Shown here: in pieces, positions 2,538 through 55,121 of the stretch | Position numbering within the stretch: position 1 is the first letter of the stretch | How the letters are laid out: each line of letters begins with the position of its first letter | Source: Sphaerimonospora thailandensis | GTDB lineage: Bacteria > Actinomycetota > Actinomycetes > Streptosporangiales > Streptosporangiaceae | DNA length: 64,000 nt | Reading direction: 5' to 3' | Assembly: GCF_016863115.1 (NCBI RefSeq) | Contig: NZ_BOOG01000016.1 | Coordinates: forward strand, 1-64,000 | Notes under the pieces: generated by a model | Database searches by the model: none | What the model was told of the DNA's origin: nothing | Seen by the model: only the letters and a program-made list of their open reading frames with translations | Translations under genes and position numbers: made by a program

Positions 2538-3281
2538 ATGGCGACTTTGGTGCTGCTGCGGCACGGCGAGAGCGAATGGAATGTCAAGGGCCTGTTCACC
2601 GGATGGGTGGACGTCACACTCTCGCCGACCGGCGAGGAGGAGGCACGACGGGGTGGTCGGCTCCTCGCCGAGGCGGGTATCCACCCCGACGTGGTGCACA
2701 CCTCCGTGCTCACCCGGGCGATCAAGACCGCCGACCTCGCCCTCGAGGCGGCCGACCTGCTGTGGTTGCCGGTCCGCCGCTCCTGGCGGCTGAACGAGCG
2801 CCACTACGGCGCGCTGCAGGGTAAGGACAAGGCCCAGACCCGCGCCGAGTTCGGCGACGAGCAGTTCATGCTGTGGCGCCGGTCCTATGACGTCCCGCCG
2901 CCGCCGATCGCGGACGACGACGAATACTCCCAGCTCGGTGACCGCCGGTACGGCACGCTGCCGCCGGAGCTGCTGCCCAGGACCGAGTGCCTGAAGGACG
3001 TCGTGGAGCGGATGCTGCCGTACTGGTACGACGAGATCGTGCCGGACCTGGCCGTCGGCCGTACCGTGCTCGTGGTGGCCCACGGCAACTCGCTGCGCGC
3101 GCTCGTCAAGCATCTGGAGGGCATCGGCGACGCGGAGATCGCGGGGCTGAACATTCCGACCGGCATTCCGCTGCGCTACGAGCTGGACGCCGACTTCCGC
3201 CCGGTCGGCAAGGGCGAGTACCTCGACCCCGAGGCCGCCGCCGCCGCCATCGAGGCGGTCGCCAACCAGGGCAAGAAGTAA
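2538..3281 (+). CDS. gpmA: 2,3-bisphosphoglycerate-dependent phosphoglycerate mutase
   Basis: A 247-aa glycolytic enzyme interconverting 3- and 2-phosphoglycerate through a phosphohistidine. The phosphorylated His is in [10 protein letters not shown] (about residue 9), the second catalytic His is in [14 protein letters not shown] (about 178), and the acid is in [14 protein letters not shown]. Length matches the dimeric bacterial type. No Shine-Dalgarno precedes the ATG; TAAGAT at 2525-2530 with a 7-nt spacer suggests a leaderless mRNA. The order mshA-ybjN-gpmA-senX3 is conserved in many actinomycetes. Confidence 0.95.
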
Positions 3282-3440
3282 CCGGTCCGGCCGGCGCCCC
3301 GAACGTGGGCGCCGCGTATGCGACCAGCTGAGCGGCGTCCATGAACGAATATTGACCGCTGGGTGAAATTTGCCGGAAAGTCCTGGTCATGCCCAGTACG
3401 GCAGGGCAGGCGGATGGAATCGCCGCCTAGCATTCTTACC

Positions 3441-4619
3441 GTGAACGAGTTGTTGGCGAGCCTCGCGGCGATGGGCGGATTCGTCGCCGGCTCAGTCGTG
3501 ATGCTCGCGATCCGCCGGCAGGCGAACACCGAGGCGCACGTGACGACGGCACGGCCAGCCGAAACCCTGCCGCCCGGCGTCGCGTCGGTCCTCGCAGTGC
3601 TGCCGTCCTCGGCCGTCGTCCTGGACCGGGAGGACCGCGTGCTGCGCGCGAGCTCGGCCGCCCGGGCCTTCGGCCTGGTCCGCGGGGACTCTCTCATGGC
3701 GGCCGAACTGCTCGCGCTGGCCAGGAAGGTACGCAGGGACGGCGAGATCCGCGAGAGCGAGATAGAGACGGCCGGTCGCGAGTTCGGGCAGGAGACGACC
3801 ACGTTCGCCGTCCGGGTGGCCCCGCTGGGCGCGCACGGCCAGGTGCTCGTCCTCGCCGAGGACCAGACCGAGCGGCAGCGGGTCGAGGCCGTACGCAGAG
3901 ACTTCGTGGCCAACGTGAGTCACGAGTTGAAGACCCCGGTCGGCGCGCTGAGCCTGCTCGCCGAGACCGTACAGGGCGCGGCCGACGAACCCGACGCGGT
4001 GAAGCGCTTCGCCGGACGAATGCAGCATGAGGCGTCCCGTCTGACCTACCTCGTACAGGACCTGATCACGCTCTCGCGCATACAGGGCGGCGAGCCCATC
4101 CCGGCTCCCGGGCCGGTACGGATCGACGAGGCCGTCCATGACGCCATCGACCGCTGCAACACCAAGGCCTCGGCGAAGGACATCACGCTGGCGGCGGGCG
4201 GCGCGGAGGACCTGGTGGCCTGGGGAGACGACGAGCTTCTGGTCACGGCCCTGCGCAACCTGATCGACAACGCGATCGCCTACAGCCCGGAGCACACGCG
4301 CGTGGTGGTGAGCGCGCGGGTGACGCGGGGCTCGATCGAGGTGAGCGTGAGCGATCAGGGCATCGGCATCCCGGAGTCGGCCCAGGAACGGATCTTCGAA
4401 CGGTTCTTCCGGGTCGACCCCGCCCGGTCCCGGGCCACCGGCGGCACCGGGCTCGGGCTCGCGATCGTCAAGCACGTGGCCGTCGCCCACGGCGGCGAGG
4501 TCAGCGTGTGGAGCAAGGAAGGCTCCGGATCGACCTTCACCCTCCGCCTGCCCGCGTTCGAGGACGGTCAGGCGGTCGACGCATCGAGTACGACCAACCC
4601 CCTGGAGGCCGCCAAGTGA
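3441..4619 (+). CDS. senX3: Sensor histidine kinase SenX3 (phosphate sensing)
   Basis: Membrane histidine kinase that works with RegX3 in the phosphate-starvation response. It has one N-terminal membrane helix (LLASLAAMGGFVAGSVVMLAI), a PAS-like domain (about residues 35-130), the dimerisation/phosphoacceptor helix with His in FVANVSHELKTPVGALS, and an ATPase domain with N box (NLIDNAIAYSP), DQGIGIP and GGTGLGLAIVK. The start is uncertain. GTG 3441 is preferred because TAGCAT (3428-3433) is 7 nt upstream, suggesting leaderless expression; an in-frame ATG at 3414 has only a weak ribosome site. The stop overlaps the regX3 start by 4 bp. Confidence 0.9.
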   Translation: MNELLASLAAMGGFVAGSVVMLAIRRQANTEAHVTTARPAETLPPGVASVLAVLPSSAVVLDREDRVLRASSAARAFGLVRGDSLMAAELLALARKVRRDGEIRESEIETAGREFGQETTTFAVRVAPLGAHGQVLVLAEDQTERQRVEAVRRDFVANVSHELKTPVGALSLLAETVQGAADEPDAVKRFAGRMQHEASRLTYLVQDLITLSRIQGGEPIPAPGPVRIDEAVHDAIDRCNTKASAKDITLAAGGAEDLVAWGDDELLVTALRNLIDNAIAYSPEHTRVVVSARVTRGSIEVSVSDQGIGIPESAQERIFERFFRVDPARSRATGGTGLGLAIVKHVAVAHGGEVSVWSKEGSGSTFTLRLPAFEDGQAVDASSTTNPLEAAK

Positions 4620-50677: not shown

Positions 50678-52114
50678 GTGGTTCGGTGGAAAGCGGGGCG
50701 GCGTGGTGTGCTCGCCGCCGCGGTCGTGAGCGTGATCGGAGGCGGGCTCCTCGCACTTCCGCTGACCTCAGCCCAGGCGGAGATGGCCCAGGTCGACCTC
50801 ATTTACCGATGCAGGGATACACCCGGCCAGCCCAACCTTCCCAACCCTCTCGTGTCCAACCCGGTCGACCTGAAGATCACCCTCACGGTGCAGACCGCGC
50901 TGTCCGTCGGCCAGCCGCTGGACGTCAAGTGGAACATCGCCTACGAGAACGGCACCAGGTTTCTGTCCCCCGGCCTGTTCCAGCCCGGCGCCCGTCTCTC
51001 GGCGACGGGTAAGGTCGGCGTCCTGGGCGAGAAGTGGCAGGGCGAGCTGCACTCGCTCGGTGCGAAGGACCAGGAGCTTCTGCAGGCCGGCGGTCCTCTG
51101 ACCCTGCCCGAGCTGATCTCCGGCGCGGTGAGCACGACGGACAAGGGCGTGTTCGAGATCGAGCCTCGCGATCTCCTGATCGACTTCACCCCGCCGCCTT
51201 CAGAGAAGGTCGTCAACGACGACGACCTCTCGAAGATCAGTTACGACGCGAACTGGATCGACTTCAACGACCGTGACCCCAAGTTCCACGACATCCACGA
51301 GGACGTACACGCGACCGAAGTGGGGGGCGCGAAGGCGACGTTCCAGTTCACGGGGACGGGCGTCGACTTCATCACCGAGCAGGACCACCGCGCCGGCGAG
51401 GTGGACTTCAAGATCGACGGGAAGCCGGGCATTCCGGCGACCGCCGACGCGTCGAAGGACGCCGACGGCAACCCGGTCGTGGTCGTCAACCAGGGAAACC
51501 ACACGCTGTGGGGCATGCGCGGCCTGCCGTACGGCCCGCATACGCTCGAGGTGACGAACCTTGAGAACAAGTGGATGATGGTGGACGGCTTCAGGGCGGT
51601 CACGGAGCAGCTCCTCGGCCCGCCGAAGCAGTTCCAGGCGACGTGCAAGCCGGTGAAGAAGCCGACAGCCATCAGGGTCGTCATCGGCGGCGGGAATTCG
51701 ACCTCTGGCCCGTCGACCAGTCCTTCGGGTCCGGACGGTCCCCCGGCCAGCCCCGACCAGAGCCCGAGCGGCACCCCCGGGGAACACAGCCCCGGTCAGA
51801 GCACCCCGATGAGGACGCCCTCGTTCAGTCCGCGTCCCACCGTGACCGTCACCGCCACCGCCACCGCCGCCGCCGGCGCCTCGCCCAGTCCGACCGCGAC
51901 GACCACGGTGACGATGACCGCGACGCCCACCGTCGCCCAGGTGGAGGTCACGCCCAAGGGTGGGGCGCAGACCGGTGAGGCCCCGGAGCAGACCTCCTCC
52001 GGGGGACTGCTCCTCGGCTCGGGTGGTCTGATGCTGCTCGTCGGCGTGTGGGGTGGCGTGGCGATGCTCAGGCGCAGGGCCGCCCATTCGGGTGACTCGT
52101 CGGCGACGCGCTGA
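50678..52114 (+). CDS. Cell-surface protein with beta-sandwich domain and atypical sorting signal
   Basis: A 478-aa exported protein. The signal peptide (RRGVLAAAVVSVIGGGLLALPLTSAQA) is followed by a first domain (~36-180) beginning VDLIYRCRDTPGQ. A jelly-roll-like domain (~195-315) has FTGTGVDFITEQDHRAGEVD and GMRGLPYGPHTLEVTN, patterned like carbohydrate-binding sandwiches. A Pro/Ser/Thr-rich stalk (~335-430) leads to PKGGAQTGE, a membrane helix (LLLGSGGLMLLVGVWGGVAML) and RRRAAHS. That layout is a cell-wall sorting signal without LPXTG. A class F sortase gene follows 13 bp later, its probable attaching enzyme. Confidence 0.85.
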   Translation: MVRWKAGRRGVLAAAVVSVIGGGLLALPLTSAQAEMAQVDLIYRCRDTPGQPNLPNPLVSNPVDLKITLTVQTALSVGQPLDVKWNIAYENGTRFLSPGLFQPGARLSATGKVGVLGEKWQGELHSLGAKDQELLQAGGPLTLPELISGAVSTTDKGVFEIEPRDLLIDFTPPPSEKVVNDDDLSKISYDANWIDFNDRDPKFHDIHEDVHATEVGGAKATFQFTGTGVDFITEQDHRAGEVDFKIDGKPGIPATADASKDADGNPVVVVNQGNHTLWGMRGLPYGPHTLEVTNLENKWMMVDGFRAVTEQLLGPPKQFQATCKPVKKPTAIRVVIGGGNSTSGPSTSPSGPDGPPASPDQSPSGTPGEHSPGQSTPMRTPSFSPRPTVTVTATATAAAGASPSPTATTTVTMTATPTVAQVEVTPKGGAQTGEAPEQTSSGGLLLGSGGLMLLVGVWGGVAMLRRRAAHSGDSSATR

Positions 52115-52127
52115 GGGGATCGCGACG

Positions 52128-53006
52128 ATGACGTCCACTCCAGACGGCGCCCCCGCCGCGGGGGAGAGCTCCGTACCCGCTGAAGGTGCTCCGGTCGCGG
52201 AAGCCGCCAAGCCGACGCGCAGGGCGCTGCCGCAGCCCGTCCTCGCGGCGCTGCTGGTGGTCGGCTCCTTCGGCGGGATCATCGCGGTCATGATCGGGAT
52301 GCTGGCCGTGCTGTCCCCGGCTGAGCCGGAGTCGCCCGGCGGTCGGGTGGACATCCAGGGCGCGGGCAACATCGCATATCTTCCGGCGACCGTCGGACCT
52401 GGTGGGCCGGACGCGCCGCTGACCGCGGCCGACCCGGCGGCGCCCCCGCCGGATCCCGCGCTTCAGCCGTTTCCTCCGCTCACGCTGACCCCGAAGACGG
52501 CCTCGGCGGCGACGTCGCGGCTGTCCGCGCTCAAGAGGGCGAAGGGCAGGCCGACCAGGATCAGGATCCCGTCGATCGGGGTGTCCGCCCCGATCGGTTC
52601 GATCGGCGTGGACAAGAAGGGTGAGATCGAGGCTCCGCCGCTGAGCAAGCCCAACCTCACCGGTTGGTACCGTTTCGGGCCCGCCCCCGGCGACCAGGGG
52701 CCGGCGGTCATCCTCGGTCACGTGAACACGCGACAAGGCGCCGCGGTGTTCAGCCGGCTGCGCGAGATCAAGCGCGGCAACAAGATCGCCGTATACCGCG
52801 CGGACGGCAAAACCGCCATTTTCACCGTGGACGGGGTCGAACAGGTCAGCAAGCTGAAATTTCCGACCAAGCGGGTGTACAGCAACACCGCCACGGCGTC
52901 ACTCCGCCTGGTCACGTGTGGCGGAGTGTTCAACGCCAAGGCGCATCACTACACCGACAACATCATCGTGTACGCCACGCTGACCTCGACCCGCGGCAAG
53001 AAGTGA
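52128..53006 (+). CDS. Class F sortase 1
   Basis: A 292-aa membrane-anchored transpeptidase. An N-terminal cytoplasmic segment, one helix (VLAALLVVGSFGGIIAVMIGMLAVL) and a Pro-rich linker lead to the sortase barrel (~150-292). Catalytic His is in VILGHVNTRQG, Cys in LRLVTCGGVF, and DNIIVYATL follows. The TCGG motif is typical of class F. ATG 52128 is chosen, 13 bp after its putative substrate gene. It would cleave the PKGGAQTG-type signal and link the protein to the wall or to another acceptor. Confidence 0.92.
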   Translation: MTSTPDGAPAAGESSVPAEGAPVAEAAKPTRRALPQPVLAALLVVGSFGGIIAVMIGMLAVLSPAEPESPGGRVDIQGAGNIAYLPATVGPGGPDAPLTAADPAAPPPDPALQPFPPLTLTPKTASAATSRLSALKRAKGRPTRIRIPSIGVSAPIGSIGVDKKGEIEAPPLSKPNLTGWYRFGPAPGDQGPAVILGHVNTRQGAAVFSRLREIKRGNKIAVYRADGKTAIFTVDGVEQVSKLKFPTKRVYSNTATASLRLVTCGGVFNAKAHHYTDNIIVYATLTSTRGKK

Positions 53007-53232
53007 CCCCGCGGTTCGAGAGGTCTTTCCGAGCACCATCGCCACGAACGCTGGACAAGATCAGGCCGGAGGGAAGTTGACTGGTAGATTACCCTCCTGT
53101 GGGGAGATCGTGACAATTTTACGACTTGTGCGGGCCCCGGCGCGGGTCCTGCGCGTGCCCGATTGAGGATTCTCTCTCCAAGAGAGTCCGAATCCTGAGA
53201 TCCTGGTGCGCCGGTTATTGGGGTGATTTGGG
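53007..53232. other. Intergenic region before the second surface-protein gene
   Basis: No gene is seen. It contains an interrupted hairpin: AGGATTC (53166-53172) can pair with GAATCCT about 20 nt later, and CTCTC with GAGAG inside it, just before the second substrate gene. It may be a terminator or leader structure. Confidence 0.45.
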
Positions 53233-54153
53233 ATGGGAGACAAGCCAGTGTTGAGGTCAGGGGCGCGGGGTCCTGTCGTCAGGAAGGCGGCCCTGGCCGG
53301 AGCGGTCGGCGCCGGCATCATCTTCTTCGGGCTGCCCGCCCTGGGCGCGCTGGCGCCGGCTCCCAAGACCGTGTCGTACGTATGCGTCCCCACGCCGTCG
53401 ATGGAGGTCCCGCCCTCGCCCGATCTGTCGGTCACGCTGGGCGGCCCCGCGAGCGCGACACCCTCCCAGGCGGTCACGCTGTCGTGGTCGAACTCCCAGT
53501 CAAACGATACGAACAAACAAATCAAGGCCGTTGCCGAGATTCCCACCACCGATCGCATCGTCATGATCGGTGAACTCGTCATCACGGGCCCCGCGGCCAA
53601 CGTGACGGCCACGGTCACGGCCACCAGCACCTACACGCCCCCGACGAAGATCGTCGCCGGTGCTCCCCTCCCGTTTCCGACGATCAGCGCGACGGTGACG
53701 CCCACGGTGGCCGGGACGCTCGTCGCGAAGGCCGAGAAGTTCACGCTTCAGGTCGTTTCGGCTGCCGCCGGCGGCGGTGGTGGTGTCATGTACATCTGCA
53801 CGATCGGGACCGCGGGGGCGAACATCGCCCCGGCGGAGGCCTCCGTCACCGTCACGCCCGCCGCGTCGAGTTCGTCCAGCCCGTCGCCCAGCCCATCTCC
53901 GAGCGCCACACCGAGCGCGACCCCGACACCCCGGCACACGAAAACCGTGTACGAGACGGTGACACTCGGCGCGTCACCGAAGCCGAAGAAGAAGGGCCAG
54001 GTGAATACGCCCGACGGCGGCGTGTCCACGGGCGGGGGTGGTGAGGCCGGCCCGGACGCGAGGGTCCTCATCCTCACCGGGGCGGGACTGATGCTGGCGG
54101 CGGCCGCCGGAGGACTCGTGCTGCGCACCCGCCGCCGGGCCGTACGGCAGTAG
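53233..54153 (+). CDS. Cell-surface protein 2 with atypical sorting signal
   Basis: A 306-aa exported protein. After a basic start and a hydrophobic helix (ALAGAVGAGIIFFGLPALGALA) comes an Ala/Thr/Val-rich beta domain beginning VSYVCVPTPS, echoing the VDLIYRCRDTP opening of surface protein 1. A second Cys in VMYICTIGTAG may form a disulfide. A Ser/Pro stalk (~215-240) leads to TPDGGVSTGGGG, a membrane helix (ILTGAGLMLAAAAGGLVL) and RTRRRAVRQ. The P-x-G-G-x-x-T-G motif matches that of surface protein 1. Sortase 2 begins 8 bp downstream. Confidence 0.82.
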   Translation: MGDKPVLRSGARGPVVRKAALAGAVGAGIIFFGLPALGALAPAPKTVSYVCVPTPSMEVPPSPDLSVTLGGPASATPSQAVTLSWSNSQSNDTNKQIKAVAEIPTTDRIVMIGELVITGPAANVTATVTATSTYTPPTKIVAGAPLPFPTISATVTPTVAGTLVAKAEKFTLQVVSAAAGGGGGVMYICTIGTAGANIAPAEASVTVTPAASSSSSPSPSPSPSATPSATPTPRHTKTVYETVTLGASPKPKKKGQVNTPDGGVSTGGGGEAGPDARVLILTGAGLMLAAAAGGLVLRTRRRAVRQ

Positions 54154-54161
54154 GGCAGCCC

Positions 54162-55121
54162 ATGGGCACGCCACCGCCTGGGCGCTATCCGCCGGATGGG
54201 TCCGGCGGGCCGTTCGGGCCGCACACAGGGGACGCCGGCGCCCAGGGCGTTCCCGGTGCTTTCGTGCCGCAGGGTTATCCCCAGCCGGTGTACGGTCAGC
54301 CGATCTTCCAGCCGGTCGTGTTGCACCAGCAGGTCCAGCCGCAGACTCGGCAGGATGCCGAGGCGCGGGCCGGGAGCGGCGTGGAGGGGATCGGCACCCA
54401 GGCGATCAGGGGTGTGCTCATCCTGGCCGCCGTCGTGGGCCTGGTGATCGTTCTCATCGGGGCCGGATTCATGATCATGTCGCCGGACCAGTACACCACG
54501 CCGGACCGTACGTCGCTGCAACGGCCGGGCGGCGTGAACCAGATGGCGGCCACCGTCGGCCCCGGGGGCCCCGGGAACCCACTGACGCAGGCCGATCCGA
54601 CCGCACCTCCGCCGCTCCCGTCCCTGCCCGCGGCTCCGCCGATGCAGCCCTCCTCGCCCAAGCGGCTGATCATTCCCAAGCTGGGCGTCAACGCGCCGAT
54701 CAGATCGGTCGGTACAGACAAGTCCGGCGCCATCGAAACTCCGCCGATCAACAATCACAACCTCGTCGGCTGGTATCGGGGCGGCCCGACGCCGGGCGAG
54801 GTCGGTCCGGCCATCATGCTCGGCCACAAGGACACCCGGACCCGCGGCGCGGTCTTCAGCAGGCTGCACGAGATGCAGTACGGCGACCAGATCGAGGTCG
54901 TTCGCATGGACGGCACCATCGCGGTCTTCACCGTGGGCGGCATCGAGCAGGCGGCCAAGCAGACGTTCCCGACCAGCCGGGTGTACGGCGATGCCAAGAA
55001 CGCGGAGCTCCGGCTGATCACCTGCGGGGGCACGTACAGCCATGCGACCGGCCATTACGTCGACAATGTCATCGTTTATGCCGTCATGACCGGAACCCGG
55101 CTCGCCAAGGCGGACTCCTGA
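54162..55121 (+). CDS. Class F sortase 2
   Basis: A 319-aa membrane-anchored sortase. A long Pro/Gly/Gln-rich cytoplasmic N-terminus (~1-75) precedes one helix (VLILAAVVGLVIVLIGAGFMI), then a linker sharing the motif ATVGPGGPGNPLTQADPTAP with sortase 1, and the barrel with His in IMLGHKDTRTRG, Cys in LRLITCGGTYS and YVDNVIVYAVM. It lies 8 bp after the second substrate gene. The shared linker and paired arrangement suggest the two modules arose by duplication. Confidence 0.92.
   Translation: MGTPPPGRYPPDGSGGPFGPHTGDAGAQGVPGAFVPQGYPQPVYGQPIFQPVVLHQQVQPQTRQDAEARAGSGVEGIGTQAIRGVLILAAVVGLVIVLIGAGFMIMSPDQYTTPDRTSLQRPGGVNQMAATVGPGGPGNPLTQADPTAPPPLPSLPAAPPMQPSSPKRLIIPKLGVNAPIRSVGTDKSGAIETPPINNHNLVGWYRGGPTPGEVGPAIMLGHKDTRTRGAVFSRLHEMQYGDQIEVVRMDGTIAVFTVGGIEQAAKQTFPTSRVYGDAKNAELRLITCGGTYSHATGHYVDNVIVYAVMTGTRLAKADS

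Follow-up and report, generated by a model that had tools for sequence, protein, structure and literature searches.

Two class F sortase/surface protein modules of Sphaerimonospora thailandensis and a candidate Thr-Gly/Ala-Gly sorting signal for class F sortases

Which surface proteins do class F sortases act on, and what signal marks them? The roles of these enzymes have been called unknown or inconclusive in the literature, and searches for LPXTG-like pentapeptides fail to find their substrates. The stretch of DNA analysed here (the window; 64,000 nucleotides, NZ_BOOG01000016.1, positions 1 to 64,000), from the soil actinobacterium Sphaerimonospora thailandensis, poses this question twice over, as it holds two consecutive pairs of a surface protein gene and a class F sortase gene.

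Two modules and an old duplication

A reading of the window's letters alone (hereafter the sequence-only reading) had described these two substrate/sortase pairs, and we found all four open reading frames where it had placed them, on the forward strand. Substrate A (50678..52114, +; 478 aa from a GTG start) consists of a signal peptide, two beta domains, a Thr/Pro/Ser stalk, the sorting signal PKGGAQTG (51953..51976, +), and a TM segment with basic RRR (52007..52078, +). Substrate B (53233..54153, +; 306 aa) is secreted and has one beta-sandwich domain, a Thr/Pro/Ser stalk, the signal PDGGVSTG (54010..54033, +; NF058571), and a TM segment with basic tail (54064..54150, +), both TM assignments being made from sequence. 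An N-terminal signal peptide (judged by inspection only) and the C-terminal order of signal, TM helix and basic tail are thus found in both substrates. The tails run PKGGAQTG-EAPEQTSSGG, TM, RRR in A and PDGGVSTG-GGGEAGPDAR, TM, RTRRR in B and, as had been reported, contain no LPXTG or LAXTG; the pentapeptides G-A-Q-T-G and G-V-S-T-G fail these motifs, which call for Leu at position 1 together with Pro/Ala at position 2. The sortases follow closely, with 13 bp between substrate stop and sortase ATG in module A and 8 bp in module B. Sortase A (52128..53006, +; 292 aa, N-terminal TM, PF04203 82.9 bits) and sortase B (54162..55121, +; 319 aa) both exceed the cut-off of 166 of the class F model NF033748 (201.5 and 204.1 bits, respectively), other classes scoring far under their cut-offs, and both contain the LGH, (V/I)TCGG and ATVGPGGP motifs that had been noted. 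A longer in-frame start for sortase A is also in the ORF list, and its residues His198 and Cys264 are numbered here from the ATG.

That one module is a duplicate of the other, as had been proposed, is borne out by the sortase tree and by the profile similarity of the ectodomains. In a tree built from 72 class F domains, the eight A-type and the nine B-type sortases group as sister clades (SH-aLRT 96; 86 for A and 100 for B), each spanning several genera, and within this 72-domain set the VGPGG linker is confined to the two clades, though not present in every member. Moreover, hhalign matched the N-terminal beta domain of substrate A (50780..51187, +, approximate limits) to the substrate B ectodomain over 121 columns (probability 95.6, E 1.2e-8; reversed control probability 1.4), a comparison that was weak at six versus five sequences and clear only at 17 versus 12. 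Because the sister sortase clades extend over several genera and the ectodomains are homologous, the duplication is old. A recent tandem duplication was rejected, considering that the two sortases are 44% identical over 252 residues, that the substrates barely align pairwise (E 0.049) and that both clades are multi-genus.

The second domain of substrate A (51290..51637, +, approximate limits) may be a jelly-roll-like, carbohydrate-binding or CE2_N domain, on the weak evidence of a Pfam CE2_N score of 18.6 bits, under the cut-off of 27.9, and of Foldseek matches to CE2, CBM6 and related domains, obtained with a low-confidence model. Naming the ectodomains by structure was abandoned, as the models have pLDDT values of 59 (low) and 77 (moderate) and the Foldseek matches are generic beta sandwiches, and for the same reasons we claim no function for them.

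A signal shared by the neighbours of class F sortases

We picked class F sortases by the enzyme alone and then examined their neighbours. The sample had 72 enzymes from the window genome and 40 relatives, and 88 enzymes from 80 loci in named genomes. A protein was counted as adjacent if it was a TM-tailed ORF on the same strand ending at most 700 bp upstream of the sortase, and its tail was searched for a loose motif, P-x-x-[GAHRPTSK]-[AVPIGTH]-x-[TAS]-G, and a strict one, P-x-G-[GA]-[AVP]-x-T-G. Adjacent TM-tailed proteins carried the loose motif in 97/106 cases, the strict motif in 44/106 and L[PA]xTG in 0/106; for TM-tailed proteins more than 1.5 kb away the corresponding counts were 4/136, 1/136 and 7/136, and three of the four distant loose-motif proteins are evident extra substrates. 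Shuffled tails, used as a control, gave the loose motif in 10.7% and the strict motif in 0.1%. Counted per sortase, the fixed pattern lies beside 119/160 enzymes, the rest comprising near variants, contig ends, divergent clades and sortases with no neighbour. In the reverse direction, 34 of the 48 motif-bearing matches to NF058571 in the 41 genomes fall within 1.5 kb of a class F sortase, where about 0.1% would be expected. The signal is found beside class F sortases in at least 19 named genera, including Streptomyces, Amycolatopsis, Rhodococcus, Micromonospora, Modestobacter, Actinomadura, Nonomuraea and Planctomonas, and in about 40 sampled genera if all sets, which may overlap, are counted.

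Co-localisation of motif and enzyme, the check that the sequence-only reading had suggested, is therefore strong in the 41 genomes and 80 named loci, and it is weaker but clear in a held-out set, in which a signal-bearing upstream neighbour was present at 78/127 sortases with room upstream. Another 31 held-out sortases lacked a TM-tailed neighbour, and over half of them belong to one family, so that pairing is common but not universal. In family f19 (L298-L326) the class F sortases mostly stand alone, without a TM-tailed neighbour, and their substrates must therefore lie elsewhere. Of 297 genomes sampled from the class, about half have class F sortases, with up to nine in a genome. In Streptomyces we also observed LARTG-like proteins (class E type) about 2 kb from a class F pair (L160:3087-4256, L191:2536-4038, L192, L196, L198, L202, L207).

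Among 119 aligned signals, in which the search pattern itself sets P1 and G8, position 3 is G in 84, position 4 is G/A/P, position 5 is V/A/P, position 7 is T in 81 or A in 35, and position 10 is G in 103. The last five residues of the signal align with LPXTG, with G/A/P in place of L, V/A/P in place of P and T/A in place of T, and are preceded by P-x-G; sequences like GAPETG and APHTG are intermediate forms. The earlier proposal that each sortase handles its neighbour through a PxGGxxTG-type signal is in large part supported by the pairing, the conservation and the clade matching, and we refine its signal to P-x-G followed by an LPXTG-like [G/A/P]-[A/V/P]-x-[T/A]-G. Loss of the motif among orthologues was looked for, and the motif was kept in all those inspected (12 A-type and 16 B-type substrates and one unlinked relative, window proteins included), while substrate B ectodomains fell to 21-35% identity. 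Signals and sortase clades also match: A-type signals run on as TGEAPE or something close to it (TGGRPG and TGEGHG once each), B-type signals as TG(G/A)GG-x-x-GPDxR, from which a single one departs at the third G, and APxAGGGG-type pairs form a separate sortase clade. These downstream flanks may differ by descent rather than by recognition.

A curated library already includes this type of signal, because the NCBIfam model NF058571, ‘GVDTG sorting domain-containing protein’, matches substrate B. This model describes the same layout of signal, TM and basic tail and matches many class F neighbours. Against its cut-off of 29, substrate B scores 26.8 bits as a protein and 31.3 in the genome scan, and substrate A 14.9 and 18.0, respectively. 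It catches part of the range, with Ala-Gly, GAP-x-TG and A-P-x-A-G variants mostly under the cut-off or missed, and a full-text search of the open literature for GVDTG returned no relevant paper describing the sorting domain.

The genome encodes four sortases, namely the two of the window, a third class F enzyme (C44, with IGH) whose partner protein ends in PTSAPHAG-GGGTAA, and a class E-type enzyme (C35). Class E sortases are known for LAXTG, and the one here is flanked by two LPFTG proteins (L080:1925-2872 and 3108-4259). A further surface protein (C62; L079:4302-5333) has a complete B-type signal, PSGGVATGGGGEVGPDGR, with no neighbouring sortase, and from this signal it is a candidate substrate in trans. 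In Microbispora an additional B-type substrate lies between the two modules (L143:3490-4875, L144:3664-4830), these loci having three substrates and two sortases.

Proposed anchoring by the neighbouring sortase and its alternatives

Taken together, we consider it likely that the two modules of the window are dedicated to anchoring and go back to a single ancestral one, and that each class F sortase attaches its neighbour to the wall through P-x-G-G-(A/V)-x-T-G. Judging from features visible in the sequence, the signal peptide would direct export of the surface protein, which its C-terminal helix and basic tail would retain in the membrane. By analogy with other sortases, the neighbouring enzyme would then recognise the eight-residue signal, its catalytic Cys would cleave between Thr and Gly with formation of a thioester, and the protein would be passed to the amino group of a cell-wall precursor; the cleavage site, the wall attachment and the one-to-one specificity are here what we infer. 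The five C-terminal signal residues would stand in for LPXTG, and the upstream P-x-G and the downstream clade flank (EAPE or GGGExGPDxR) probably help to separate the two modules from each other, from the third class F pair and from the class E/LPFTG system.

Considering that the stretch is rich in Gly, Ala and Thr and that the loose pattern arises in 10.7% of shuffled tails, P-x-G-G-x-x-T-G could instead be a mere flexible Gly-rich spacer, in proteins that stay in the membrane while the sortase serves other substrates. We regard this as very unlikely, since the spacing of P, T/A and G is fixed across at least 19 named genera, the strict form drops to 0.1% in shuffles, and the signal is near absent from other TM-tailed proteins of the same loci and is conserved while stalk and ectodomain diverge. 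It is also conceivable that class F enzymes link these proteins with one another or with some other acceptor (polymer, lipid or glycan) rather than to peptidoglycan, as the acceptor is not visible in sequence and Microbispora has three substrates for two sortases; however, the Pfam and NCBIfam scans returned no pilin-like family and the neighbours are mostly single proteins, and we think this unlikely.

Studies of Actinoplanes missouriensis bear on another alternative, in which anchoring of these proteins falls to the class E/LPFTG housekeeping sortase and the class F enzymes have some other task. A mutant of that organism lacking its four class F sortases had no phenotype, and SrtE accounted for the proteins tested (PMC13251363). 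However, class E substrates in the present genome carry LPFTG and adjoin the class E gene, while non-LPXTG proteins adjoin class F genes in about 40 sampled genera (sets may overlap), and the A. missouriensis authors themselves suggest the proteins beside SrtF1 and SrtF4 as possible class F substrates (PMC13251363), so that this explanation seems scarcely probable. They set those neighbours aside because no canonical pentapeptide was found (PMC13251363). Similar to the window substrates, the proteins in question, AMIS_11010 and AMIS_36440 (beside srtF1 and srtF4), have a signal peptide, a C-terminal TM, basic residues and a class F neighbour and lack a canonical pentapeptide (PMC13251363), and we predict that they bear a P-x-G-x-x-x-(T/A)-G signal.

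Dedicated anchoring by neighbouring class F sortases can also be set beside two characterised systems. For the only studied class F enzyme, SrtF of Cutibacterium acnes, LPXTG is the reported signal (PMC13257024, PMC7913060). Compared by description, this enzyme is like the window enzymes in its class F family (NF033748, conserved His, TCGG Cys), but it is a sole housekeeping enzyme, whereas each of them is paired with one substrate that has a different signal. The class E/LAXTG system of Streptomyces coelicolor (PMC5148588) is likewise a dedicated actinobacterial sortase with a signal departing from LPXTG, although the window signals differ from its own and the class E-type enzyme here has Arg where class F has Asn.

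On the strength of the sequence comparisons, the Thr-Gly/Ala-Gly tag is a concrete candidate substrate signal for class F sortases. A general signal of this kind makes class F substrates findable and suggests why earlier studies passed over adjacent proteins. It also supplies peptides (PKGGAQTGEAPE for sortase A and PDGGVSTGGGGEAG for sortase B) and point mutations for direct tests, and dedicated signals so unlike LPXTG could serve orthogonal sortase ligation.

Sortase residues: Thr/Ala covariation and the active site

A scan of sortase alignment columns against signal position 7 ranked residue 220, two before His222, first. In this first set, which includes a few manually corrected or added signals, residue 220 is L/A/T/E in 84/87 Thr pairs and V/I in 34/38 Ala pairs (118/125 overall). 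The Thr/Ala label changes nine times on the tree, with three pairs on well-supported branches, for which we found on average 2.6 concordant and 0 discordant (sign test p 0.25). With the rule fixed beforehand, 136 further loci, a few of whose genomes overlap the first set, gave five V+Ala and three V+Thr pairs against two pairs of other residues with Ala and 67 with Thr/Ser (Fisher p 5.5e-5; 4e-4 after collapsing identical pairs), and in the three V+Thr pairs the V evidently tolerates a Thr signal. The covariation is suggestive, relatedness not being fully removed from it. As proof of recognition it was discarded, as the independent changes are too few and it was found by a column scan.

His and Cys are conserved at 97% and 99%, respectively, in an alignment of 160 class F sortases, the window pairs being His198/Cys264 and His222/Cys288. 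A His-Cys-Arg active site has been ascribed to all sortases (PMC13257024), and the sequence-only reading had taken it as established for class F. The Arg did not hold up, for in the same alignment, where the active-site loop is aligned by sequence only, the usual Arg position is Asn in 97% (Asn302 of sortase B). In fact no Arg occurs within 15 residues after the Cys in 50/158 class F enzymes, both window sortases among them, whereas the class E-type enzyme of the same genome keeps one shortly after its Cys (TCHPKYSAQQR) where class F has Asn. Arg284 of sortase B, at Cys-4, is 93% conserved and mostly His in the remainder of the 160 sequences, and the held-out set has a similar active-site residue pattern. 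With Asn at the Arg position, the statement that all sortases are His-Cys-Arg needs checking for class F; the missing Arg is a property of the sampled class F sequences, which questions the general statement and not class membership. A search by sequence for a solved class F structure gave no convincing PDB match.

At present we can only tentatively suggest that class F forms a distinct branch, which might read the eight-residue P-x-G-[G/A/P]-[A/V/P]-x-[T/A]-G, in which the residue two before His might influence whether Thr or Ala is accepted, and which might work without the canonical Arg, possibly with a relocated Arg at Cys-4 (Arg284). Divergent sortase-like genes, some in tandem, were also observed (L139, L141 and L107, for example L139:1999-2709), in which the catalytic His is replaced by Tyr or Arg and the Cys by Ala or Ser.
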